Made by a program: the position numbers and the translations under genes. Positions 5,510 through 18,743 of a stretch of 64,000 nt of DNA are shown here, in pieces (the stretch's first letter is position 1; each line of letters starts with the position of its first letter). The DNA comes from Sphingorhabdus sp. SMR4y (GTDB taxonomy: Bacteria > Pseudomonadota > Alphaproteobacteria > Sphingomonadales > Sphingomonadaceae), in the NCBI RefSeq assembly GCF_002218195.1, contig NZ_CP022336.1:1669001-1733000 (forward strand), in the 5' to 3' direction. Below the pieces are notes generated by a model that saw nothing but the letters and a program-made list of their open reading frames with translations, was not told the origin of the DNA and searched no databases.

Positions 5510-5530
5510 GGGATGGTGGACAGGATAGGA
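5510..5530. repeat. Left attachment site (direct repeat of the tRNA-Tyr 3' end)
   Basis: A 21-bp sequence identical to 18654-18674, where it comprises the last 17 bases of tRNA-Tyr including CCA plus 4 bp beyond. Identity stops on both sides (g/a before, g/t after). A repeat of a tRNA 3' end at the far edge of an integrase-bearing segment is the standard footprint of tyrosine-integrase insertion, so this is the distal att copy of the island. Confidence 0.85.
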
Positions 5531-6080: not shown

Positions 6081-6353
6081 TTGACGAAGAGTGCATCCGA
6101 GACCTTTTTGATGTCGCTTGCTGATCGCACCTTTCTAAAGCTGTGGGTGTTACCAAACACCTTCTATGCGCCGGGCAAAGAACTGACCGACCTGATAGTT
6201 CCGTTCGGTGACGACATCATCATCATCTCCGACAAAGCTTCCCGGTTCGACTTCACCCAACCCACGGAAGTGGCATGGCGTAGATGGTATTCCAGCGCAG
6301 TCGCGGGAGGAGTGCGGCAGCTCAAGACTGCTACCCGCCCGAATGATGTCTGA
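6081..6353 (+). pseudogene. Truncated N-terminus of an unidentified protein
   Basis: An ORF starting at TTG (AGGGCGCTAGG upstream) encodes a protein-like N-terminus: SLADRTFLKLW, ELTDLIVPFGDDIIIISDK and AWRRWYSSAV. This pattern, a strand with an acidic 'FGDD' turn followed by a W-rich helix, resembles the N-terminus of nuclease-like hypothetical proteins of larger size, though I cannot name the family. From about 6325 the frame runs antisense into a DUF262 remnant and stops. It appears to have been cut by a deletion that joined two unrelated gene starts end to end. Confidence 0.45.
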
Positions 6354-6467
6354 CCAGAGCTGGCGGCATTCCTTCTCGGTCCAAGAATAGGTTCGTTGAT
6401 AAATCGGGATCACGAATTGTGGTGACTTTTTGAGGAACGCCAACAGGCTTGCTTCGGTGGCTTTCAT
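6150..6467 (-). pseudogene. Truncated DUF262 (GmrSD-like) N-terminus
   Basis: From the ATG at 6467 (GGAGAAAGTC upstream) the first 47 residues are the DUF262 signature: FVIPIYQRTYSW followed by CRQLWSDI. DUF262 proteins such as GmrS and the ParB-like part of other modification-dependent nucleases normally exceed 400 residues. Here similarity stops at about 6327, where the frame enters the antisense of the convergent truncated gene. The remnant lies just downstream of the R-M genes on the same strand, so the intact ancestor was probably another defence gene. Confidence 0.6.
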
Positions 6468-6480
6468 GTTGACTTTCTCC

Positions 6481-7266
6481 TCAGGCGCAATGGTTGAGCA
6501 TAGTTCGGACCAGCTGATAGGCGGGTCCGTAGCAAGCGAGCGCGGCACTATGCGGAGCTAGCTCACCATGCAGTAGGGTGTTACGCATGCGATAAATCGT
6601 GATGACGACACCAGAGAATAGGTCCTGCGGAGGGCAACGGAAATTTATAGTGCCACATTGGATTGCTGGATCGTTGCCGTTCAAGAGGTTTGTCATTGGC
6701 CTTGGATTACAGTCTGAATAGAGAGCTCGTAATTGCCCTTGGCTCGCTTGAGACAGGGCTAGAAAGGCAGGTGTCGCTGTAAGAGCGAGCACGCCATAGG
6801 CCGGTTGTTCTATTCGGCAAATTTCCGTTCCGGCCCGATCAAAGACCTTGCTGATCCAAACTCGACTGACTTTTTCGACTTCATACCTGCGTCCGGCGCG
6901 TTCAGAATTCTGTGGTAGGGGTTGACCACGGCTCAGCGGCACACTCCGTAAGCTAATATGTTCCAAATTTCCGTTATGATCGCTCTCCAAACGATGCGCC
7001 TCCAACGCACCATGCAGGTCTGCAATATGCTGTTTAAATGCTGCTGATTCGGCATTATCGATGGTCTGCGAGTCTAAATAAGGCAGGACAGCGCCACGCA
7101 AACTATTTTGACGGTTTCGGATGTGAAGCAATCCTTCATTATCACGTCGTGAGCCGGAGACATGCCGATACCAAGCATTGAATGCGGCCCAAGCACTTAC
7201 AAATGGGCCGAGATAATCAATTTCAGCTCGGGCAATCCAATCGTTGACCTCTGCTGGTCTAGGCAT
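6481..7266 (-). CDS. HEPN-like protein linked to the R-M genes
   Basis: About 261 residues from the ATG at 7266 (AGGAGA eight bases upstream). The protein is helical, starts with WIARAEIDYLGPFVSAWAAFN, and near the C-terminus has RNTLLHG (R228, H233), which fits the R-x4-6-H motif of HEPN ribonucleases and nucleotidyltransferase partners. Its start overlaps the stop of the specificity-subunit gene, so it is the third gene of that operon. A role as RNase toxin or accessory effector coupled to restriction is inferred. The HEPN call rests on one motif plus helical context, so a structural role remains possible. Confidence 0.5.
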   Translation of the reverse strand: MPRPAEVNDWIARAEIDYLGPFVSAWAAFNAWYRHVSGSRRDNEGLLHIRNRQNSLRGAVLPYLDSQTIDNAESAAFKQHIADLHGALEAHRLESDHNGNLEHISLRSVPLSRGQPLPQNSERAGRRYEVEKVSRVWISKVFDRAGTEICRIEQPAYGVLALTATPAFLALSQASQGQLRALYSDCNPRPMTNLLNGNDPAIQCGTINFRCPPQDLFSGVVITIYRMRNTLLHGELAPHSAALACYGPAYQLVRTMLNHCA

Positions 7267-8647
7267 AAGCGGTCTCCTGTTCAGCGATATAGGCAAGTGC
7301 GGCGGCTTCGCTGCCCTCTATAGCGATTTCGACAGCACGTTTTGCATCGACTAAAAGTTGATTTGCCCGTCCCTCGAGTTCGAATGACTGTTGGATTGCT
7401 TCAGCGATTTCGATTTGAAGTGCTTCAGGTGCATTCCAAACCAATATCTGTTTTACATCATCTGGGTAGAGTTCGATTTGGCCGGATGAGCCAGAGATCA
7501 TGCGGTCAACCTGCATCTGCCCAACCGGACTGTTCAAGAATACGGAGAGGTAAAGTGGATCTATTCCAATTGGCCGAACAATCGTCACATGATTGTCGGG
7601 GACCGCTTGTTGATCTTCTAGATAGGGTGCAGCGCGTCCAATAGTCCCAACTCCGGTTCCATTGATGAGAACATCGCCTTTCTGAATAATGTGTTTTCCT
7701 GGTTGAGCCACGCGGTTAGCATCTGAGAGCAACACACGATTAACTCGAACGTGTTTGGAGTTAATCACAGGAAGCCCGACAATTCCATACTTCGGTTGCT
7801 GTCCGCGCGAAACCAGTTTGGTCAATCCGTCCCCTAACAAGTGCGCAGCGTTAGTGCTAATCAGCTTTTCCAAAACGGTTAGATATTTTGGCGCAAAATA
7901 ATTAGCGTCAAAGCGTTCCACCTCACGCACCTCATTAGCCGAAGCAGTGAAGGCTAGTGGTTCAGGCGGCGACCATTCTCGCAGCCCCAATGCGTCCAGA
8001 AGTAGGTCTTCTGCCTCGTTCCTTTTCTGACGCGCTGTGTCGGACTTGGAGTTGCTTTCAAAAAATAACCGAGAAATGCCTTCGTCAACCGCTTTTCCAA
8101 CAGGAACGATCGGTAAGTTGCCCAAACCGATGAGGCTTAGATAGGGGTTCATTTGTTCTGTTTGTTCTCGGTTCGCGAGGGCTTGCCCGATTGAACTTCC
8201 AAGGTACGCTGCCAAAAAAACCGCAGAAACCCTCTCATCGTTGGGAACCAAGAGAGCGATGTCTTGATTGAAGGCGAGATTTTCTTTTGGGTTTTCAATG
8301 AATGGATATGCTTGGCAAATTCGACGTTTTATTGTGCAGAGTACCGAACCTGCTGCAATACGACGAGTTTTTGAGAATCCGGCTTCATAGGCAGATAGGG
8401 GGATGTTCTTAAAACGCTCTTCATGAAGGCGAAGAGACGAGATGCAGTCGATAGTAATAAACTTTGCCTCTCCATCTTTCAGGTTCGGTAATTTGGGGGT
8501 AAAACCGGAAGTCTTCTTTAAGCAGATATCCTCGATACGAAGGGCGCGTGGATCGCGCTCAATCGCCTCTAATCTCTCAGTCTCAGGATGTGCAAAAAAA
8601 TCAGCGTCAAGACGCTTTCGCAAAATAGTAGCCTTTGCAGAAGCCAA
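7259..8647 (-). CDS. Specificity (S/B) subunit of a BcgI-like or type I R-M system
   Basis: 462 residues with two half-repeats, each opening with a target-recognition-like block: VLCTIKRRICQAYPF in the first, and KGDVLINGTGVGTIGRAA, VPDNHVTIVRP and YPDDVKQILV in the second. These are standard HsdS features. The region near residues 203-215 forms a conserved helical spacer. It would direct the methylase-nuclease subunit to a bipartite DNA site. The first available start is TTG at 8647; the frame is open further upstream, into the end of the methylase gene, with no ATG or GTG. It overlaps the HEPN-like gene downstream. Confidence 0.85.
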   Translation of the reverse strand: MASAKATILRKRLDADFFAHPETERLEAIERDPRALRIEDICLKKTSGFTPKLPNLKDGEAKFITIDCISSLRLHEERFKNIPLSAYEAGFSKTRRIAAGSVLCTIKRRICQAYPFIENPKENLAFNQDIALLVPNDERVSAVFLAAYLGSSIGQALANREQTEQMNPYLSLIGLGNLPIVPVGKAVDEGISRLFFESNSKSDTARQKRNEAEDLLLDALGLREWSPPEPLAFTASANEVREVERFDANYFAPKYLTVLEKLISTNAAHLLGDGLTKLVSRGQQPKYGIVGLPVINSKHVRVNRVLLSDANRVAQPGKHIIQKGDVLINGTGVGTIGRAAPYLEDQQAVPDNHVTIVRPIGIDPLYLSVFLNSPVGQMQVDRMISGSSGQIELYPDDVKQILVWNAPEALQIEIAEAIQQSFELEGRANQLLVDAKRAVEIAIEGSEAAALAYIAEQETAYA

Positions 8648-8700
8648 CCTAACCGCTAGCCCCTTCGTCAGCGCCGCAAAGCGGACGCTATCGAAGGGGC

Positions 8701-10698
8701 CTAGGGAAAAAAATTCAAATTCTCCCGTTTTGCAAATTCGATGAAAGCTTCGGCTATGCCGTCTCGGGTTTTACCTTCATGATTGAACAAATCATGCTGG
8801 ATAATGAAATGGCCATGGTCATCACGCAATGGCCCACCATCGGCATCCATTTCATATATCTTGTCGCCGCTATTGTCCTTGCTCGCGAGTTGCTGCGTAG
8901 CGAAGAATATTTCGTAGTCCTCGGTCTTTGGACAAAGCACCCCCGCCGCTTTGTTATCATTCCATTTTTGCACAAACAGTACGCTGGTTTTGGTGCCTGT
9001 ATGCGGTTTGAAACTGTTGAGGTGTAGGCCGACAACCGCCAAGATGCGGCAACGCTCCATAATATAGTCACGCAACCTCTTATCACTGGAGTTATTGAAT
9101 CGCCCCTGTGGCAACACAACCGCCATTCGCCCGCCGGGTTTCAACATATCCAGATTACGCTCAATAAATAGCAGGTCGCGACCAACTTTCTTTTCCAGTC
9201 GCCCCTTAACATTGTGGGCTAGGTCATATGGTGCAAGTAAAGCCGCTTGTTTGATGTCACCAGCGAATGGGGGATTAGCCATCAAAACGTCGAACCTAAA
9301 TTCACGATCATCTTTTGCTGCACGAAGGCGGCGTAAGCGTCGCCAACCCTCTCCGTAGGCATTGTCCCAATCCTCGTCCTTCGCCGTTTCAGACCAACTA
9401 CGCCAATCAAGCGAATTTAGGTGCAACACATTGGTCTCTCCGTCACCCGCGATCAGGTTAAGACAGCGCGAAACGCGAACACTCTTTTCATCAAAATCAA
9501 TCGCAAAGACTTTGTCCTTCACATAGTCAGTGCAACGGGCTGGTTTGGCATCCATTGTGAAGAGATGCGATTGTGCCAGTCCTTGATCATCCATAATCGA
9601 GCGCCAAACATGAAACATGCTGTGCACGGTGAATCCTGCTGATCCAGCAGCGGTATCTATCACGCTTTCATGCTCTTTCGGGTTGAGCATTTTTACACAC
9701 ATATCAATCACCCAGCGAGGCGTAAAATATTGCCCTTTCTCACCCTTTGACGTCTTGTTGACCAGATATTCAAAAGCATCATCAATGATGTCTAAATTGG
9801 AGTTGAAAAGTTTCCATTCCTCAAGACTACCAACGCAAATTTGAAGATGTTCTGGTGAGAGGCGGATGCGCTCATCCGTGGCAAAAACACCAGGCCATTT
9901 CTTTTTGGCCTCATCGAACAGTTCCGAGAGAGCATTTTTGACCTGTGACGCGCTGTCTTCGTTCCGAAAACGCAGATACTTATATCGTCCGCGATGGCAT
10001 TCCATTTCATCAAATAGCTTGATGAATATCAGCTTGAAAACTTCCTCGAAGACATCGACGCCTGCATTGGCAAGGACTTCATTCTCAAGGTCCATAATCA
10101 AATCGCGTAGTGTACGCGCTTGCTCGCGCTTGGCATTGCGTTCCACTTCCTTTGTGATCAAATCAACAATCGTCCAGGGCTGATTTACTATGGAGGCAAT
10201 GGTTTGAGAGGCCGTTGGGAGCTCGGCAATTTCAACAAAGAAGTTAGGATCTTTGCGATTCCATACGATGGTTTCTAAACCACGGCTCCAAATCGCTAAA
10301 GGGGCTCCAGTAGCGTTGGTATATGAGCGCAACTGCTCTTTGCCATCTTTTGCTTTGACCTGCTTAACTTCAATTACCGCATATAGAGCTTCGGGGCGAT
10401 GCTCATCAGTGATTACGATGTCAGCTTTTTTCGTGGCATCTCGACCTATCACGATTGGGTCTTCCACACGGATACGTGACAACGGATATCCGTAGCCGTT
10501 GATGAGGCGGTCCAGCCAAAGCTGCCTGACGATTTCTTCTGGAGTGACCTTAATATCTTTCTCACGCTTCAGGCAGCGAACGTAAAGCTTGTCATTCTTT
10601 TCACTCACTCTCGCTTCGAGCCGTTCAACTTCGATTTGAGTGAGCAGAGCGAGCGCACGCCCCACATCGCCAGCCATGTACCCGTCAAGAATTGCCAT
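8701..10698 (-). CDS. Fused nuclease-methyltransferase subunit (BcgI A-like / type IIG-like)
   Basis: About 665 residues from the ATG at 10698, chosen for GGAGA just upstream; an ATG at 10749 would add 17. Numbered from the longer form, the N-terminal 200 residues resemble the HsdR nuclease domain with a PD-(D/E)xK core: D110 in KADIVI and E127-V-K129 in AVIEVKQ. This is followed by an N6-adenine methylase with motif I DTAAGSAG (365-372) and the catalytic NPPF (492-495). There is no helicase domain and no separate hsdR gene, so cleavage and methylation are probably both carried by this subunit, as in BcgI. It is followed directly by the specificity gene. Confidence 0.85.
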   Translation of the reverse strand: MAILDGYMAGDVGRALALLTQIEVERLEARVSEKNDKLYVRCLKREKDIKVTPEEIVRQLWLDRLINGYGYPLSRIRVEDPIVIGRDATKKADIVITDEHRPEALYAVIEVKQVKAKDGKEQLRSYTNATGAPLAIWSRGLETIVWNRKDPNFFVEIAELPTASQTIASIVNQPWTIVDLITKEVERNAKREQARTLRDLIMDLENEVLANAGVDVFEEVFKLIFIKLFDEMECHRGRYKYLRFRNEDSASQVKNALSELFDEAKKKWPGVFATDERIRLSPEHLQICVGSLEEWKLFNSNLDIIDDAFEYLVNKTSKGEKGQYFTPRWVIDMCVKMLNPKEHESVIDTAAGSAGFTVHSMFHVWRSIMDDQGLAQSHLFTMDAKPARCTDYVKDKVFAIDFDEKSVRVSRCLNLIAGDGETNVLHLNSLDWRSWSETAKDEDWDNAYGEGWRRLRRLRAAKDDREFRFDVLMANPPFAGDIKQAALLAPYDLAHNVKGRLEKKVGRDLLFIERNLDMLKPGGRMAVVLPQGRFNNSSDKRLRDYIMERCRILAVVGLHLNSFKPHTGTKTSVLFVQKWNDNKAAGVLCPKTEDYEIFFATQQLASKDNSGDKIYEMDADGGPLRDDHGHFIIQHDLFNHEGKTRDGIAEAFIEFAKRENLNFFP

Positions 10699-10905
10699 CG
10701 ATTTCTCCATTGCCGTGGACAGAAAACCTGCCTCCGCAAGAACCCTCATAGATGCCAGAAGCCTAATCGTAAACGCGGCATCTCAGGTGCTAACTCACGC
10801 ATTATTCGACAGAAAGTTGGAAATCGGCTAAAATCGTTCTGTGGCGCTATTTTGTGCACGGGGAGAAGGGGTATAAGTAAACGCCACAAGCCTGCTGAAA
10901 TAGGC

Positions 10906-12090
10906 TTATTTCGCGAATTTTTGACGGTTTAAGTTCAAGAGGGGGAATAAACTACTCGTTGAACGGCACATGAGATTGAAATTTTCGACCGTTTTGGCCC
11001 CGACTTCCAACAGGCAGGTGTTCAAAGAAATAGTCGCGGACCAGTCCGTCGAGATTTCTGAATCTAAGAGTCCGCCTTCGAGCCGAAAAACTAGATTTTT
11101 CAGAGAGCCAACCCTCTGCCCAAGTCTAAAAAATTCGTCAGTGAAGTTAATTTCACAAGCGCGAATTGCATTCCTCCCTTCGCGCGTGTGCATATCGTAA
11201 GCTTCAGCTGGAAAATTGCCGATCATGGTGGACGACGGTAGGCCATTTTGTACCAGCCTAAATTCGCTCTCGTTTTTCACCAGAAACCAAATTTGCAGAT
11301 AAGAGCAGAATAGCGCGTCGCTCGTTCGAGCTGCACCACGGTCAGCAATGTAATAGACGATCAGCGGCATTCTTGCCTTTGCCATCTCTTCCATAAGTGG
11401 GGCGCGGGGGCGATAATTGGATTTTGGGAGCACGCCGCTTTGAAATCGGTGAGTACCGGCCAAAAGCCATGTCGCCAGCATTCTTTTTTCAATGGGGAGC
11501 GCTTCATCACTGACGCGCTTGGCAAGCTCATGGTCAGGTTCTTTGGCCCACTCAACGATAAGCGGTTTAAAGCCGAGGTTGTACTCCACCAGGCTGAGCA
11601 AATCACATGCTAATCGGCTTTTCGGACTCGCCGCCAATGTCTGGGCCAGATAGCCTGCAAATTCGGCTTCCCCGACCTCACGCCTCCGTCTGCGATCTCC
11701 AAGAACAGCTAAACAAGACGCCACAGCAAGTAGATTGCCAAGGCCCACATCTTCTAAAGCGCAAACTGCCAACCTGCGGAAGACATGATCCGCATCCAAC
11801 TGACACCCTTGTTTGGCAAACTGGATAGCCCTGCCCCCTTCACCTCGTCTGATTGCTTTTTGGAGCGCGCTGATATTGAGCCATTTTTGCGCCGGAGTCA
11901 GTTTAATCAGTTCATGCGGCGGAGCCTCACAATCTGAAAAAGAAGAGAGGGTATGCTCCCAAAGCAGCTCATCCATTGATTTGAGTAGGCTGGATTTTAC
12001 CAGACCATCCGACCCCAGAAAAGCTTCGGGCAAAGGTCGCGTCAAGCATAGTTGGCGCAATTCAGATACTGGCTGCCAAATATCGAACAT
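10906..12090 (-). CDS. Hypothetical protein resembling the C-terminal domain of MgsA/RarA
   Basis: 394 residues, ATG at 12090 with AAGGAG seven bases upstream. A helical block ISALQKAIRRGEGGRAIQFA followed by RLAVCALEDVGLGN resembles the cluster/tetramerisation region of RarA/MgsA ATPases ('...SEDVGLADP'), but there is no Walker A or B motif anywhere, so the ATPase part is absent. The rest, helical and rich in leucine, is not recognised. Stand-alone proteins of this kind occur in mobile elements, a recollection not checked here. Its role in the island is unknown. Confidence 0.5.
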   Translation of the reverse strand: MFDIWQPVSELRQLCLTRPLPEAFLGSDGLVKSSLLKSMDELLWEHTLSSFSDCEAPPHELIKLTPAQKWLNISALQKAIRRGEGGRAIQFAKQGCQLDADHVFRRLAVCALEDVGLGNLLAVASCLAVLGDRRRRREVGEAEFAGYLAQTLAASPKSRLACDLLSLVEYNLGFKPLIVEWAKEPDHELAKRVSDEALPIEKRMLATWLLAGTHRFQSGVLPKSNYRPRAPLMEEMAKARMPLIVYYIADRGAARTSDALFCSYLQIWFLVKNESEFRLVQNGLPSSTMIGNFPAEAYDMHTREGRNAIRACEINFTDEFFRLGQRVGSLKNLVFRLEGGLLDSEISTDWSATISLNTCLLEVGAKTVENFNLMCRSTSSLFPLLNLNRQKFAK

Positions 12091-12255
12091 GTTCTAACTC
12101 CTTGTTTTAGATACAAGAAGCGTAGTTCGTCACACTCGACACGATAGAGAAATCGGTCGCGCTGAATGTCAGCCAGCTCCTCTCGAGACTGGACTTCTCC
12201 GAGCGGACCTTGCAATTTGGAACTGCGTCACTAGGTCAGGTGAGGAGGTGCAATC

Positions 12256-12483
12256 ATGCCATCGGGAATCTGTGTGAATTTCGAGTTTAACGTGCCGCTC
12301 GCTATAGCGATTAGCCCCGGCGAGGCGCGGGTGCTTCACGGCAAATATATCGGACTTCCCAACAAGGAAGAGGCCGACGTCTACGACCTTTTCAAAATAG
12401 ATCCCGACGGTGAGGCGGTCGGCGAATGTCAGGGACGGATAGGCGCTACCATCGTTGAAGTGGGGCCGGTTGAGGATCGCTAA
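12256..12483 (+). CDS. Small hypothetical protein (75 aa)
   Basis: A 75-residue acidic protein with a very strong ribosome-binding site (GAGGAGG, ending seven bases before the ATG), which is the main reason to accept it. The sequence (NFEFNVPLAIAI, GEARVLHGKYIG, DVYDLFKIDPDGE) looks like a compact beta-rich domain. No family is recognised. It is the only plus-strand intact gene of the island and lies divergent from the MgsA-C-like gene and convergent with the TIR-like gene. Confidence 0.6.
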   Translation: MPSGICVNFEFNVPLAIAISPGEARVLHGKYIGLPNKEEADVYDLFKIDPDGEAVGECQGRIGATIVEVGPVEDR

Positions 12484-12502
12484 CCGCCGCCTAATTCGTT
12501 GC

Positions 12503-13822
12503 TCATTCCTCTTGGCTCAGGGATACCGCCGCCACTCGCTCAAAGGTATCAAGGTCGGGTGCTGGCGAATGACCGTATGCGTCCATCATCTCGTTCCAGA
12601 AGCGCAGCAGCAGGGCGTTCCGGCAACGCGCGGTCCAATCCTCGGCATCGTCGCGGACGCTGACACGATCCGCCAGCGCGGGCGTTCGGTGCGATCTATA
12701 TTCGCCGGGAATCGACGAGGCGAGTAAGCCGGCTGCGCCGAGTTCGATCTCTATCCTTCCCTCTGCATTGAACGAGCGTAGGCCGGCGATAGCCTCGCGC
12801 ACGAACCTAGCGAGGTATCCAAACGGGACTTGGTAAGAGAAGTACCAACCTGGGCTTTCGTTCTCTCGACCGAACGTGGTGGTATCCACGCCCCAGATTT
12901 CACCGCTAGCGGAGAACCACTGCGTGATCCCGCGCGCTCCGTAGTTTGCATCGTCGATCGTGCGGATGCCGCTGGCAGCGAAGCCGCCGTCGCCGTTGGA
13001 TCCTGACGATCCGTATCCCGACCGGACGGCCAACTTGATATCACGCTGGCTCATCCGCTGGGCGACGGCCTGCCGCGTCTGCGGCGTCCACCCATCGACC
13101 GCTAGGCGGACGTAGATCCTCGGCCCATCATCAAGGTGCGCGGTCTTGCGCTCGTCATGGATCAGCGACTCATTGAACGTGACGCCATGCTCCGCGCCCG
13201 CCCATACGGCTGGATCGCCCTCGCTCGGACACTGCATCAGCAACGGCGACATAGGCGGGAGCCTCGCTGCGGCACGGGCGAGGATCGGCGCGAGGTACGT
13301 GGCGAACTGTGCAGCCAGATCCTGTCTGACATGGCGGCGCTGGGCCGCGGTCGCGTCGTCGGCGAGAGTATAAAGCAACGGCCCCCGTCGATGGCGCCAA
13401 TCGAAAGGCAAGGCTTCTGGACCGGGATAGCGCGTCCGGTTCGCGACGAGGATGATGTTGTCCTGCCCAACCGCGTGGTCGGCGTAGCCAAGCTCGGACA
13501 TCACGTTCGGGTTCTGAAGATGCTTCACCGGCGGAAGTTCGTTGTCGGGTGTACCCGGCATAAGCTCGGCGGGAATTGTCTGCCCGATAGGCGTCATGTC
13601 GGCCACAAACGCCGCAGCGCTCTCGATCTTGCGCAGGATCCCGGTTACGATATCGGGCGTGCCCTCCATGCCAAGCGTATCGTGGTCGACCTCGGGCCGC
13701 ACCGGGCCGTCGATCTCGCTATCGTGTGCCAGTTGGTCACAGGCGTCGCGCAGTGCATCCCGCACCAGATATTGATGCAGACGTCGGTTAAGATCAGCCT
13801 GCCAAGACCAGAACACTTTCAT
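12503..13822 (-). CDS. TIR/deoxyribosyltransferase-fold-like protein, putative defence effector
   Basis: 439 residues; ATG at 13822 with GGAGGAAG upstream. The first 130 residues look like a TIR-like or nucleoside-2-deoxyribosyltransferase fold: KVFWSWQAD at strand 1, PDIVTGILRKIESAAAFVADM, then NPNVMSELGYA with E110 in the position of the catalytic glutamate of NAD- or nucleoside-cleaving enzymes. The larger C-terminal part (WYFSYQVPFGYLARFV) is unrecognised and may be a sensor. Its GC content is clearly higher than that of the neighbouring island genes, hinting at a separate acquisition. A defence role is inferred from fold and location only. Confidence 0.55.
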   Translation of the reverse strand: MKVFWSWQADLNRRLHQYLVRDALRDACDQLAHDSEIDGPVRPEVDHDTLGMEGTPDIVTGILRKIESAAAFVADMTPIGQTIPAELMPGTPDNELPPVKHLQNPNVMSELGYADHAVGQDNIILVANRTRYPGPEALPFDWRHRRGPLLYTLADDATAAQRRHVRQDLAAQFATYLAPILARAAARLPPMSPLLMQCPSEGDPAVWAGAEHGVTFNESLIHDERKTAHLDDGPRIYVRLAVDGWTPQTRQAVAQRMSQRDIKLAVRSGYGSSGSNGDGGFAASGIRTIDDANYGARGITQWFSASGEIWGVDTTTFGRENESPGWYFSYQVPFGYLARFVREAIAGLRSFNAEGRIEIELGAAGLLASSIPGEYRSHRTPALADRVSVRDDAEDWTARCRNALLLRFWNEMMDAYGHSPAPDLDTFERVAAVSLSQEE

Positions 13823-14373
13823 GCGCTTCCTCCGCAGGCGACCCTACGGACTGCAACGTTGGGTCTCAAGTCCCAATCACGAGATCGTACTTCGTAGATT
13901 CGTCGGCCGAAAGCCGTCAGCCTGCGACCGGCCAAAAAACGGTCGTCCATGTTGGGTCATTTGCATGACTGCTCTCTACCCAGTTGTTGCCATTCCCAAG
14001 CGCTTGAACAAGTAAAGAGACGATCGCTCTGATTGAGGCTGGCACGACAGGTGCGAGGCTCCGCATAATTGAACAGCTCTCTGTAGCGCTGAAAGGTGTC
14101 TCAACAGCCCTGCTTTCCAGTGAAGTGGTGACCAACGCAACTTCACGCGAAAAATACCAATTATTGACTTCGAGACTCTCTAAGCCGAGTGACAATGATC
14201 TGAAGTGGCTGTCAGGTATGGTGGATGCAGCGCTAGAAACGAAACGGTAAACAACCGCAGTAGACCCTGCTTCTATACAGCAGATGGGATTGCTGAGTTT
14301 GCCTTAGGAACTGCGAGTTTCCTCCAAAACCTGACAAACCTCCAGACTTGGTTTGGTAAAGAACTACTGAAGA
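13823..14373. other. Gene-poor stretch with one frame-disrupted ORF
   Basis: About 550 bp without an intact gene. The only coding-like signal is the plus-strand open frame at 14008-14250 described separately. The DNA from 14250 to 14373 and from 13823 to 13960 shows nothing I can support beyond short random ORFs. Confidence 0.6.
14008..14250 (+). pseudogene. Coding-like frame without a start, probable pseudogene
   Basis: An open frame of 80 codons reads like a helical protein: TSKETIALIEAGTTGAR, LRIIEQLSVALKGVSTALL, then SDNDLKWLSGMVDAALET and a stop. It has no ATG or GTG at its beginning, being preceded directly by TGA. A different frame just upstream (from ATG 13965) encodes MTALYPVVAIPKRLN and ends at the same place, so a small indel near 14008 may have split one gene. 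The family is not recognised. Confidence 0.35.
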
Positions 14374-15024
14374 TCAAGAGAACTTTATATCCAGTCTTTT
14401 CATGACCCGGCTGACCATTGTTGCTGACCAGGCTGTTCCTGCTCTGCTAGAGATTTCCTGCTCGTTTAAGCGCTCTGCGACTCCAGTGTATGTCGTTATG
14501 CTCTGATCCAGACAACATTCTATGTCTGTGCGCATTGTTTCGGCAAAATTTTTGGCTGCGAGACGGTTTTGCCGCGCCAAGACTTTGCCGTTATTACCTA
14601 ACTCGACTCCTCGCGCCTTTGCGGCAGCTAAGGCAACCTTGGTGCGCATAGAAATCTGCTCTCGTTCGTGCTCAGCAAATGCCGACAGGATGTGAAGCAT
14701 CAACTTGTTTGCGTAAGGAGCATCGACTGCAACAAAATCCACCCCTGTTTCCATCATTGAGGAAATGAAAGCTACGTTCCTCGCCAGCCTGTCCAGTTTG
14801 GCAATAACCAGCGTGGCCTTTTCCCTCCGGCATTGTGCCAATGCTTCGGCAAGAACGGGACGGCTGGATTTGGACCCGGATTCTACCTCGACCAACTCGT
14901 CAATATGCTCATGCGGGATGCAAGCTAGGTAGTTGCGAACCGCACCCCGCTGCGCCTCCAACCCGAGACCAGATTGGCCCTGCCTATTTGTGGATACACG
15001 AAGATATGAAACGAATTTTTGCAT
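14374..15024 (-). CDS. Serine site-specific recombinase (resolvase/invertase family)
   Basis: 216 residues, ATG at 15024. The resolvase catalytic domain is clear: YLRVSTNRQG with nucleophile Ser11, GLEAQR, then KLDRLARNVAF and AEHEREQIS. The C-terminal 60 residues (VAERLNEQEISSRAG, then WSATMVSRVMKRL) form the DNA-binding helix-turn-helix. It would catalyse strand exchange by a 5'-phosphoserine intermediate, as a resolvase, invertase or small transposon recombinase. It follows the reverse transcriptase on the same strand after 67 bp. No obvious inverted or res site was spotted beside it. Confidence 0.9.
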   Translation of the reverse strand: MQKFVSYLRVSTNRQGQSGLGLEAQRGAVRNYLACIPHEHIDELVEVESGSKSSRPVLAEALAQCRREKATLVIAKLDRLARNVAFISSMMETGVDFVAVDAPYANKLMLHILSAFAEHEREQISMRTKVALAAAKARGVELGNNGKVLARQNRLAAKNFAETMRTDIECCLDQSITTYTGVAERLNEQEISSRAGTAWSATMVSRVMKRLDIKFS

Positions 15025-15091: not shown

Positions 15092-16312
15092 TTAATTGGA
15101 TTTTGTGTTTTTTGCTGCCTTGTGTTTCGCATAGGCGGCCCTTCGGGCTGGCATAACAACATGAGCACCAATATTTATCTCGACAAGATCATCCCCATTC
15201 TTCGAGCGATCCCAGATTGAAAACGCACTCATCCAACTTGTCCGATATTGTTTTTCTCTTTCTTCAATTTCCGATGGGTGGCTGTCAGACAGCCTTTCGA
15301 ACATCCTTGTTTCAAGTCGATTGAATGACTTAGGCGATGGAGTGAAACGAACCCCTCCTCCAAATTTTTTTGGTCTTTTGCGAACTCTATACCCCAGATA
15401 ATCGAGTGGAGTTCCAAATTCTGAAATTTCCGATTTTACTTTAAACGGCCCAGCAGGGTGTCCCGCACAAAGTGCGTGAACGACTCCTTCGTTTGCTTGA
15501 GCAACACACTCTCGATCATTCCCAATAATCACGTCGTCGCCATGGACAATTTTCGGATAACCCGAAACCTTGTCCAGAATTGACTCCATGATCTTAGAAG
15601 CAATGAAAGGTGATGCAAGCGAGCCTTGTGGGATCCCCACTTGAGCCGCTTGGAGTAAAGGAAATTCAATAAGAAACTTTTCCTCTCTTATACAAGGAAG
15701 GAAGATTACATTCTGTATCACTCTATCAGGGAGCGGAATGATCTCCTTCATACGATCTCTCGTTACAGAGCCATAAAAATTCTCAATATCATTTATGTTA
15801 TACCATCGAGGGCCTCCTTTCTGCTGTATTGCGTCTTTTATTAAATTCAGCGCTCGAACTGGACCTTTCCCTTTGCGAGCGAATTCATACCTGCTTTGAC
15901 CCAAAGCACTCGTCAGAATGAGTAAGACAAGTTTTTGTAGGACCCGTCGTTTGACGCCAAATGAGAATGTAAGCCTCATGCCACTGTCTTTCGGGACAGC
16001 GATTGGATGAATATACTCACCACAATCTACCCACGGATCAAGACCGTCTAACAGGGTATCGAGTTTTGTTCTTGTTATTGGGTGCTTGCCATTCCAGGCT
16101 AGGATAAATGCGATCAATTTTGCATCGTAGCTCTTTAGGAGTCGCTCAATTGCTGCTCTTTGTTGCCGCCGATCACACTTCTTCAGCGACCTAAGTTTCC
16201 TGATGAATCCCCTGCTTCGCTGGCCAACTTCTTCCCGAAGCTCATCATTCAAATTCCAATGTGAACCGAAAACGGCCTCGCCGCGACCCATCAAATCGGA
16301 CACGGCAATCAT
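15092..16312 (-). CDS. Reverse transcriptase (group unresolved, possibly defence-associated)
   Basis: 406 residues. Finger motifs appear as AVPKDSGMRLTFSFGVKRR; motif A is DIENFYGSV (D175); motif B is GIPQGSLASP (226-235); motif C is VHGDDVII with D259/D260 and histidine where Tyr or Phe is usual; then a PFKVKSE turn and LDYLGYRV (motif E). Both catalytic aspartates are present, so an active polymerase is expected. There is no maturase or HNH domain as in group II introns, and QGxxxSP argues against a diversity-generating type. No VTG motif typical of retrons was seen. The start overlaps the stop of the AlpA-like gene (ATGA). Confidence 0.85.
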   Translation of the reverse strand: MIAVSDLMGRGEAVFGSHWNLNDELREEVGQRSRGFIRKLRSLKKCDRRQQRAAIERLLKSYDAKLIAFILAWNGKHPITRTKLDTLLDGLDPWVDCGEYIHPIAVPKDSGMRLTFSFGVKRRVLQKLVLLILTSALGQSRYEFARKGKGPVRALNLIKDAIQQKGGPRWYNINDIENFYGSVTRDRMKEIIPLPDRVIQNVIFLPCIREEKFLIEFPLLQAAQVGIPQGSLASPFIASKIMESILDKVSGYPKIVHGDDVIIGNDRECVAQANEGVVHALCAGHPAGPFKVKSEISEFGTPLDYLGYRVRKRPKKFGGGVRFTPSPKSFNRLETRMFERLSDSHPSEIEEREKQYRTSWMSAFSIWDRSKNGDDLVEINIGAHVVMPARRAAYAKHKAAKNTKSN

Positions 16313-16497
16313 TGGAACGAGCCGTTCGCTTGAGCTTCGACATAGGAATCAAGATCGGCAGCTCTATAAATTACTCGCTTGAGACCTAACCGATACCACT
16401 TGGGACCAACTTGCTTTTTACGCCAGTTAACCAGTGTCGACGAACAAACGCCGAGATGATCCGCTGCTTCTTGAGTTGTTAGTGCTTTTTCCGTCAT
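16309..16497 (-). CDS. AlpA/excisionase-type HTH protein
   Basis: 62 residues; GGAG lies seven bases before the ATG. The pattern TTQEAADHLGVCSSTLVNW then VIYRAADLDSYV is the winged-helix MerR/excisionase fold of AlpA-like and Xis-like proteins. In satellites and integrative elements these regulate excision or integrase expression. Here it is translationally coupled to the reverse transcriptase, which suggests it controls, or is controlled with, that gene. The three TTTGCAATG-like repeats upstream are candidate operators. Confidence 0.85.
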   Translation of the reverse strand: MTEKALTTQEAADHLGVCSSTLVNWRKKQVGPKWYRLGLKRVIYRAADLDSYVEAQANGSFQ

Positions 16498-16605
16498 AAT
16501 TTACTCCATGGACAACAAACTCTTGCTGTGCTGCCGCTGGGCGTCTCACGACGGCCTTGAGCTTCCCTCCATGGAAATGACACAAAATCCTACTAGCTCA
16601 AACCA

Positions 16606-16650
16606 TTTGCAATGTCAATAACTATCTATTGTTTGCAATGGGTTACAATG
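16606..16650 (-). promoter_or_regulatory. Candidate promoter and operator repeats for the alpA-like/RT operon
   Basis: On the plus strand TTTGCAATG occurs at 16606-16614 and 16632-16640, and the variant GTTACAATG at 16642-16650. On the minus strand a perfect TTGACA (16613-16618 as TGTCAA) overlaps the first copy, followed 17 bases later by TAGTAG, a weak -10. Repeats overlapping a -35 box upstream of a small HTH gene suggest autoregulation. The -10 is poor, so the promoter call is tentative. Confidence 0.4.
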
Positions 16651-16745
16651 AAATCAAACGAAAGTGAAGTTATTCGCGTGAGCTTGGTAACAATTACGAG
16701 TCAAATCAACTGGTTAGCCAATCTGTCGTTCGAGTGAGATTGTTT

Positions 16746-18461
16746 TCAACTGATAACACCTACCAACGACGGCCGAAATGTTGCCCTCTGCATCGAAGCA
16801 GATAGAACTCCGATTGAACTGCCTTTTCCATATTGCGCATTCATTGTGCCGCTATCGTGTCCCAATATGCGGTCGATCTCGTAAAGAGGTATTTCTGCAT
16901 CTCTTAAGATGTCAGCCATTCCATGTCTGAAACTGTGAAATGTCAATGCAGGGTCATCTAGACCAACCTTATCAAGGCACCGCGCAAAGATTTTGGAAAA
17001 CTCAGTGGATGCTTGACCATCGCTGCCAAACTTCATTTCAGAAAACAAACGTCTGGATGAATGTTTCCATTTTCGTCTTTGCGCCACAAAATCTGCAAAC
17101 CCCAATTGGAGAATGTCGGGATGAAGCGGAACCTGCCTTATCCCCGCGCTGGACTTGATATGTTTCTTGTCCCCCAACCCCTGCTTCTCATTGAGATCAA
17201 GGTAGGGCATGTCCTCGTCCAGTTTGACGTCGGTTACATGAAGCTGGACCAATTCTCCTAATCTGGCGCCGGTGTAGTAACCGAGAATGGGTATCCAGTA
17301 TTTCGCATCCTTGAACACATTTTCCCCAAGTAAGAAACGACGATGCTTGGATTTGCATCCGGTGAAAAGTGGGGAACCGAATAGTATCAACAACTCGGCC
17401 TCGGTATATGGTCGGCGCGCGAGCTCTCCCTTCGGAGTTTTTTGCGCAATCCATTTAATATCTTCCGCTGGATTTACGGCTATCAGCCCTTCTTCTGATT
17501 TCGCCCATCTGAAAAAGGCCTGAGTTGGTTCATAAATCAACCTCGCCGTCTTGTTCTTTATCTGCGCGTTTTCATTCTCCGTAAGCTTCTCGAAAAAACC
17601 CTGAGATTTACCCTGCCCGTGTTTGGCTCTTAACGTTATAAGCTTTTTTCTATATTCCCGGATATCGGCTGGCATCACATCGGAAAGCCTTTTTCCTTCC
17701 TCCAGAAACTCAACCAAATACCCCAACTGCCAGACGCGCGCTTTGTGTGTTTTGGCAATCCAAGATTTCTTTTTTGACGCAAGATAGTCGCTAACAGCTT
17801 GACTTAAAGTCGGCCCCTGAAATCCCGTTTCCGACATAGACGACGGGATTGCCGCAGAGTTTAGAGCTTCTGCGTTTTGAAAAATTGAGTTCTGGGCGTG
17901 GTAAGCAGAAAGTGGGCTACGCAAGCGATGCTGAAAGTACCTTTGTTCTTCAACTAAAGCTTGGGCGAAGCCGTGCAGTAGCTTTAGCTGATCTTGATCC
18001 CCTTGGGTTTCAAACGAGATACCTCGCTTTTGCAGATACCTAGAGGCTTTCCGAGAAATATCCGATCCAAAATTCCAAGATACAATCCGTCCCTGCAGTT
18101 CATTTATTTTATCTTCTGCCAGAGCTTCCTGTTCCAAGACCTCCAAATCTGGATAGTCGCTGGTCAGCACCAGCAGACAATGTTGATCCACTCGGTCGGA
18201 CAATTCTACAAAGCAAGACTGGATCAACTCCCTTGCTTCTAATGGGGTAATTTTGACATTATTCTCAATCACGACAAACGTCTCCTGCACCTGTGCCGAA
18301 ACTTTTGCAGCAAGCCGTCGCGCTATCACGCTGGAATAGGTTTTGAGTGACCTGTTGATCTCCATGCGTTCGACGCGAGGCCGCAATCTATCAGGCACAC
18401 GTATGCGCAAGTGATAGATGCCGTTCCGGCGTTGAAGGTGAGGAGCATGTCTTCCGCTCAT
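16746..18461 (-). CDS. Tyrosine-type integrase of the tRNA-Tyr island
   Basis: About 571 residues from the ATG at 18461; a GTG at 18488 adds nine residues without an upstream ribosome site at proper spacing. The N-terminus (HLQRRNGIYHLRIRVPDRLR) is the DUF6538-type arm domain. The catalytic set is visible (long-form numbering): R409 in TGARLGEL, H518/R521 in FHSFRHG, H544 in LGHDS and Y553 in NAQYGKG. It would recombine the island with the tRNA-Tyr 3' end. Its 5' end points at the right attachment site about 190 bp away, the usual arrangement. Tail tyrosine and all pocket residues are present, so it looks functional. Confidence 0.92.
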   Translation of the reverse strand: MSGRHAPHLQRRNGIYHLRIRVPDRLRPRVERMEINRSLKTYSSVIARRLAAKVSAQVQETFVVIENNVKITPLEARELIQSCFVELSDRVDQHCLLVLTSDYPDLEVLEQEALAEDKINELQGRIVSWNFGSDISRKASRYLQKRGISFETQGDQDQLKLLHGFAQALVEEQRYFQHRLRSPLSAYHAQNSIFQNAEALNSAAIPSSMSETGFQGPTLSQAVSDYLASKKKSWIAKTHKARVWQLGYLVEFLEEGKRLSDVMPADIREYRKKLITLRAKHGQGKSQGFFEKLTENENAQIKNKTARLIYEPTQAFFRWAKSEEGLIAVNPAEDIKWIAQKTPKGELARRPYTEAELLILFGSPLFTGCKSKHRRFLLGENVFKDAKYWIPILGYYTGARLGELVQLHVTDVKLDEDMPYLDLNEKQGLGDKKHIKSSAGIRQVPLHPDILQLGFADFVAQRRKWKHSSRRLFSEMKFGSDGQASTEFSKIFARCLDKVGLDDPALTFHSFRHGMADILRDAEIPLYEIDRILGHDSGTMNAQYGKGSSIGVLSASMQRATFRPSLVGVIS

Positions 18462-18570
18462 TGCGGCACGCCCCGGTTCCGGCCCCACCTGAAAGCTTGG
18501 ACCGTCCCTGCTGATATTATTCCCTCAGCAAAAGGGGACCGAACAGCTTTTTCCAAAACAGTTTGGCCGT

Positions 18571-18653: not shown

Positions 18654-18674
18654 GGGATGGTGGACAGGATAGGA
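18654..18674. repeat. Right attachment site inside the tRNA-Tyr 3' end
   Basis: The 21-bp partner of 5510-5530. It spans the last 17 bases of the tRNA, including the encoded CCA, and 4 bp beyond. The tRNA on this side is complete, so the host gene was preserved by the insertion. Confidence 0.85.
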
Positions 18675-18743
18675 TTCGAACCTATGTACGCTTACGCGGG
18701 CAGATTTACAGTCTGCTGCCTTTAACCACTCGGCCACCTGTCC
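18658..18743 (-). tRNA. tRNA-Tyr (GTA)
   Basis: On the minus strand the sequence starts GGACAGGTGGCCGAGTGG and ends CCTGTCCACCA, giving a seven-pair acceptor stem (GGACAGG/CCTGTCC), discriminator A and an encoded CCA. The anticodon loop reads ACTGTAAATCT, anticodon GTA, for tyrosine. A long variable arm (CCGCGTAAGCG) and the TTCGAATCC T-loop fit the class II bacterial tRNA-Tyr. It is the integration target of the adjacent island. Confidence 0.97.

Follow-up and report, generated by a model that had tools for sequence, protein, structure and literature searches.

Retrons place a reverse transcriptase (RT) beside an accessory gene in mobile elements, and in type VI retrons the RT is paired with an HTH protein. 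The RTs of the group II intron and CRISPR lineage have an RT fold with an N-terminal region. Small HTH_17-type proteins near a tyrosine integrase are described as RdfS-type excisionases or recombination directionality factors. For DRT10 (UG17), PMC12632851 describes a 137-nt RNA, and a tyrosine recombinase that is carried by some loci and is dispensable for defence. The locus of Sphingorhabdus sp. SMR4y analysed here resembles each of these systems in part. It was found in a window of 64,000 nucleotides, by which we mean the whole stretch of DNA analysed, and its features are as follows.

5510-5530: attachment repeat, distal copy, 21 bp, identical to the tRNA-side copy
6150-6548, minus strand: GmrSD_N fragment, a short relic of a type IV restriction gene
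7259-8647, minus strand: cargo protein of 462 aa beside the methyltransferase, a putative specificity subunit by eye, with no Pfam match
8701-10749, minus strand: cargo N6 methyltransferase with an HSDR_N-like N terminus (PADLOC MTase_I, 1376 bits)
10906-12090, minus strand: cargo protein of 394 aa, weakly matching MgsA_C and resembling a protein of the L022 locus
12503-13822, minus strand: cargo protein of 439 aa, with no Pfam, NCBIfam or PADLOC match
14374-15024, minus strand: small serine recombinase of the resolvase/invertase type, 216 aa
15092-16312, minus strand: reverse transcriptase, 406 aa, RVT_1, with intact motifs and fingers-palm-thumb length
16309-16497, minus strand: HTH_17 (excisionase/MerR-like) protein by Pfam and PHROGs, 62 aa
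16498-16745, minus strand: integrase-HTH intergenic region, 248 nt, with two CATTGCAAA near or around TTGACA and two TCCATGGA
16746-18488, minus strand: tyrosine integrase with an N-terminal DUF6538, 580 aa, upstream of the HTH-RT pair and adjoining tRNA-Tyr
18654-18674: attachment repeat, tRNA-side copy, 21 bp, at the 3' end of tRNA-Tyr
18658-18743, minus strand: tRNA-Tyr, the integration target

The RT matches RVT_1 in Pfam with E=1.6e-8 (35 bits against a cut-off of 29.6), and it is the sole RVT_1 match in the whole 3.48-Mb genome. Motif A reads NDIENFYGS with its Asp at D175, motif B reads GIPQGSLAS (QGSLASP), and motif C reads VHGDDVIIG with GDD at 258-260, so that the catalytic aspartates D175, D259 and D260 are all present, as the sequence-only reading had claimed. 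The G+C content of the gene is 0.451. The protein shows no match to a maturase, to an endonuclease or to a fused effector domain, and no recognised effector gene is fused or adjacent to it; an AlphaFold2 run on two sequences gave a pLDDT of 40, and the model was left unused. The partner protein finds HTH_17 as its best Pfam family (E=3.2e-10) and phrog_66, "excisionase and transcriptional regulator", in PHROGs (2e-7), while the AlpA model is absent from the 11 Pfam families matched at E<=1; the earlier label "AlpA-like" is thus imprecise, and excisionase-like describes the protein better. The direct coupling claimed for the two genes agrees with the reading frames, in which the HTH stop and the RT start share ATGA, and this overlap suggests that the genes are translationally coupled. 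The serine recombinase likewise follows the RT on the same strand, 67 nt downstream, with a Resolvase match of E=2.7e-29.

We then compare the RT with the known types. Its best PADLOC match is UG17 with 41.6 bits, whereas the true UG17 RTs of L087 and L091 (L numbers denote loci and G numbers genomes) score 439 and 460 bits with that profile, and with the UG4 profile two RTs of that type reach 362 and 458 bits; these true members serve as yardsticks. Ten RTs called group II-like, a label taken from their PADLOC profile pattern (L122 and L093 are among them), reach about 67.7-141 bits with UG17, above the window RT, and the UG17 match is therefore a generic RT signal. The resemblance to DRT10 consists of this best profile and of the tyrosine recombinase that some DRT10 loci also have. 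However, the score is far under that of true members, the RT is not with UG17 in the tree, the ORFs neighbouring it have no Pfam or PADLOC match to a SLATT protein, and a test of little power for RNA gave no structured RNA; membership in UG17/DRT10 is rejected. The other PADLOC UG/DRT scores are lower (Drt3a 19.6, UG19 14.3 and Drt9 10.8 bits), no Abi profile is among the PADLOC matches, and eight relatives of the window RT score at most 62.4 bits with any PADLOC RT profile. Closest in structure is the group II and CRISPR lineage: the best NCBIfam model is TIGR04416 with 42.5 bits, and the family profile finds the group II maturase 6me0 (3.7e-27) and the Cas6-RT-Cas1 protein 7kft (1.3e-21) as the nearest solved structures, while a search with just the window RT yields 7kft (1.6e-4) and no other. 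Unlike those RTs, the window RT lies far below the family cut-offs (300 for TIGR04416) and in a separate clade, and the window has no maturase or endonuclease match, no intron RNA in Rfam, and no Cas gene among the ORFs scanned; a group II intron is rejected on the missing Pfam maturase match, the TIGR04416 score and the missing Rfam intron. A diversity-generating RT is rejected as well, since the island has no template/variable repeats (its longest direct-repeat family is 28 nt), motif B of the RT reads QGSLASP and the BPP-1 RT stands apart in the tree. The retron is set aside because no msr/msd-like RNA was found at the window, in a search of limited power, and because the clade excludes the distant Ec86 RT, the sole retron reference, with support 98/95. 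On the whole, the view that the RT is neither of group II intron nor of diversity-generating kind holds, and no named defence RT type is matched by PADLOC, NCBIfam and the yardstick scores.

The surrounding genes form an island of about 13.1 kb bounded by the two 21-bp repeats. With an integrase beside the tRNA gene and, at the opposite edge, a direct copy of the tRNA 3' end, it is a tRNA-targeted integrative island. Its G+C content is 0.500; the left flank has 0.550 and the right flank 0.574. It was earlier taken for a defence-type island, which the direct repeat, the MTase_I methyltransferase and the GmrSD_N fragment confirm. The N terminus of the 439-aa cargo protein looks TIR-like in its pattern by eye. 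A further cargo protein of 271 aa at 6481-7296, with no Pfam match, has an RNTLLHGE stretch, reminiscent of HEPN domains. Among genomes of the same genus, G1000 has ordinary genes in its tRNA-Tyr region and a single copy of the repeat; it is not a perfect empty site, since it differs from the window also to the left of the repeat, over about 2.3-5.5 kb. G931 has another tRNA-Tyr island with an integrase and a serine recombinase, without an RT and with the repeat at both edges. In L162, from another genome of the genus, this tRNA-Tyr bears an island of 8.2 kb (6146-14476) different from that of the window, with the repeat at both edges, which shows that this site is an island hotspot. The L162 island holds an integrase, a serine recombinase and a large gene that is restriction-like by eye.

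Relatives of the RT are few and concentrated. At E<=0.001, a search with the window RT hits 15 of the 396 genomes scanned in the order and 6 of the 385 in the class; several of these matches are to generic RTs. With the profile A1, built from 13 relatives, matches are found in 56 of 397 genomes of the family, and above 100 bits in 16 genomes. Above that threshold, the same profile finds only the own genome and G238 among 289 genomes of the class, and only the own genome among 249 genomes of the phylum; the weaker matches are mostly generic RTs. The clade resides mainly in Sphingomonadaceae-like genomes, and the single relative from a contig scan (L066) also comes from an uncultured Sphingomonadaceae bacterium. 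The viral contigs scanned with the family RTs and the plasmids and phages searched by tblastn gave no relative, showing that the phages and plasmids of those collections do not commonly carry the RT. The family as studied here consists of 24 loci that exceed 100 bits on the 13-relative profile and were collected through their similarity to the window RT and to the relatives that it found first; the frameshifted L131 RT is counted as a locus. In a tree of 47 rows, 22 of them from the family, a single branch (support 98/95) separates the family from the other rows. The references include the ten group II-like RTs, two UG17, two UG4, one DGR (BPP-1) and one retron (Ec86), and L028 (a near copy of L027), the short L127 and three surplus reference rows were left out. 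In this phylogenetic placement, of the kind asked for earlier, the family stands apart from the group II-like, DGR (BPP-1), retron (Ec86), UG4 and UG17 RTs; the tree has no Abi, DRT2 or DRT9 reference. The nearest relative of the window RT is that of L022, which is 37% identical and likewise lies at tRNA-Tyr. The clade is apparently a diverse, undescribed enzyme family beside the integration genes of small mobile islands. The open-licence PMC text yielded no description of the gene set or of a bacterial RT family with xDN sites; PMC8934634 and PMC4244168 deal with unclassified bacterial RTs, so that single members may sit under that label.

The active site varies at one position. The Asp of motif A and the first Asp of motif C are kept in all 22 tree rows, and the second motif C residue is only D or N, with the window RT keeping the Asp. 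Asn takes this position in 14 of the 22 tree rows, or in 16 of the 24 loci when L028 and L127 are included (the residue of L026 and L032 was read from the tree alignment), and the change from Asp to Asn occurs at least four times on the tree. The dN/dS ratio is 0.23 for L033/L123 (GDN), 0.29 for L027/L028 (SDN) and 0.25 for L030/L032 (CDN), where synonymous changes are near saturation, and 0.42 for a fourth pair, L027/L125. These values show that the xDN forms are under purifying selection and are not decaying. The polymerases of negative-strand RNA viruses use GDN, which makes activity of the xDN RTs plausible; DNA synthesis by most members is uncertain owing to the Asn in motif C. As a separate observation, YADA replaces YADD in the group II-like RT of L093 (1042-2382), which is apparently inactive.

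The neighbours of the RT recur across the family. A tyrosine integrase lies within 9 kb in 22 of the 24 loci, a count from integrase profiles partly seeded from these loci (the window integrase alone gives 13 of 24), and in 18 of those 22 it lies within 3 kb (binomial P 4e-6 on a uniform null). Serine recombinases below 300 aa occur in 18 loci, and both recombination genes together in 16. Neither gene is found in the controls, namely 20 stretches elsewhere in the family-bearing genomes and nine generic RT loci. The integrase is at most 200 nt from a tRNA gene in 14 of the 24 loci (Tyr, Glu, Leu, Ser, Ala or Met), and in seven loci the RT is flanked on both sides by a repeat of the tRNA 3' end, 17-34 bp in length, which gives elements of 8.4-13.1 kb; L028 is excluded from the seven because its 16-bp repeat lies inside the tRNA and not at the 3' end. 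Nine DUF6538 matches above cut-off are found in 12 family-bearing genomes, seven of them RT-side integrases and two elsewhere, one of the latter in a 77-aa frame. The cargo of the window island and of several relatives includes restriction/methylation genes, several of which were read by eye. In L025 (8475-9053) and L031 (8475-9032), a protein of 185-192 aa near the serine recombinase and the RT has a CxxC/CxxCH-like pattern, HNH-like by eye, and no PHROG match. An HTH gene stands directly upstream of the RT on the same strand in 11 loci (the window, L021, L023, L024, L027, L028, L029, L030, L032, L130 and L131) that spread over several subclades, and is missing there in 13; the overlap with the RT gene also occurs in several subclades.

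Related islands without an RT show what else can occupy its place. Between the integrase and the serine recombinase, L167 (7796-8890) and L168 (10973-12064) carry a protein of 363-364 aa with no Pfam, PHROG or PADLOC match, which may be a functional counterpart of the HTH-RT pair. When L024, which has the RT, is compared with L167, which has none, both the integrase DNA (69%) and a block of cargo (79%) are shared, and the slot between differs. Since RT-less relatives have another gene in the same slot, the HTH-RT pair is seen as an exchangeable module. Moreover, the integrase type varies among the RT-bearing members, and RT similarity is uncorrelated with integrase or recombinase similarity (Mantel r 0.05 and 0.01, with n=17 and 15 and low power). 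Together with the RT-less islands, this makes the pair look like a portable accessory in the integration-gene cluster.

The sequences show an intact window RT in a clade of its own, a pairing with HTH_17 proteins in several subclades, a position in the integration cluster of islands with tRNA repeats at their edges, purifying selection, and replacement by another gene in RT-less relatives. We tentatively prefer, with a confidence a little short of even, the explanation that the two genes, HTH and RT, form an exchangeable accessory carried by small integrative islands that target tRNA genes, a probably protective, DNA-synthesising module of a separate RT lineage. Judged from its sequence, the excisionase-like HTH protein would control the operon and perhaps excision, and it may be a directionality factor; under such control, induction of the island or a challenge to the cell would switch on the RT. 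The enzyme is then predicted to make DNA, and by analogy with DRT and retron systems this DNA may shield the host, or may shield the island from phages and competing elements. Counting against a protective module are the negative searches for a known effector and for a structured or conserved RNA, the 13 loci of 24 missing the HTH gene upstream, the Asn in motif C of most members, and the low-power test in which RT similarity did not correlate with that of integrase or recombinase. The earlier suggestion of a new type stands as far as the own RT clade and the recurring HTH-RT pairing go; its defence role is putative, and the conserved partners are recombination genes of integrative islands.

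The main rival, which we consider somewhat unlikely, is that the RT serves the island's own cycle, being made together with a putative recombination directionality factor and aiding excision, replication or re-establishment of the excised circle. The HTH protein is excisionase-like, as RdfS-type factors are, and its gene overlaps the RT in several subclades, an overlap in which it is unlike RdfS-type factors; the RT lies among the recombination genes and not deeper in the cargo, and such a role predicts the same neighbours as are seen here. However, the RT is found with unlike integrase types, and it is not needed for integration, as shown by the RT-less islands of L162, with its flanking repeats, and of L167, which shares integrase DNA with an RT island. 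A related and quite unlikely possibility is that the excisionase-like HTH protein and the RT, often D-D-N and not D-D-D, form a distinct mobile-element module, in which mobility by a tyrosine recombinase is linked with DNA synthesis on an RNA template in the island cycle.

It is unlikely that the locus is a retron-like or DRT-like system with a template RNA nearby that was missed. In other RT-based defence systems of bacteria, the RNA that is used lies adjacent, and 248 nt upstream of the HTH gene are intergenic. Against this, Rfam gives no match apart from the tRNA, no fold z-score falls below -1.4 (that of 16498-16745 is -1.1), the PADLOC retron-type profiles score at most 18.1 bits on the window RT, and no long conserved noncoding block appears in the 14 locus pairs compared. 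In L033 and L123, whose RT DNA is 77% identical, conservation is limited to the RT, 49-109 nt upstream of it, and a neighbouring stretch, about 600 nt long and overlapping with a reading frame. The intergenic region 16498-16745 is possibly a control region with putative operator sites; a search for HTH-site motifs gave only weak leads. Upstream of the RT, L033 and L123 have a GTTGCACCAGTTGCAAAAT element in common, possibly a candidate operator site.

Finally, a functionless passenger, namely a degraded group II intron RT, is very improbable. In its favour, the closest solved relatives by profile are group II and CRISPR RTs (6me0 and 7kft), the N-terminal half can be aligned with a group II maturase, most members have an altered motif C and one member, L131, is frameshifted, whereas the two invariant aspartates in 22 of 22 rows, the restriction of the other residue to D or N, the dN/dS of 0.23-0.29 in three pairs and the recurrent neighbours all speak against it.

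Much new defence chemistry has come from bacterial RTs, and RT modules as such are known already; what appears to be new in searchable sources is the lineage, the HTH partner and the xDN sites. If true, the preferred reading of an exchangeable, probably protective module adds an RT lineage that PADLOC, NCBIfam, PHROG and Pfam do not assign to known types, with a recurrent gene partner. The repeated change from Asp to Asn at an active-site position that binds metal makes the activity of the xDN RTs directly testable, and the family makes it testable whether an RT can serve the own cycle of an integrative element.
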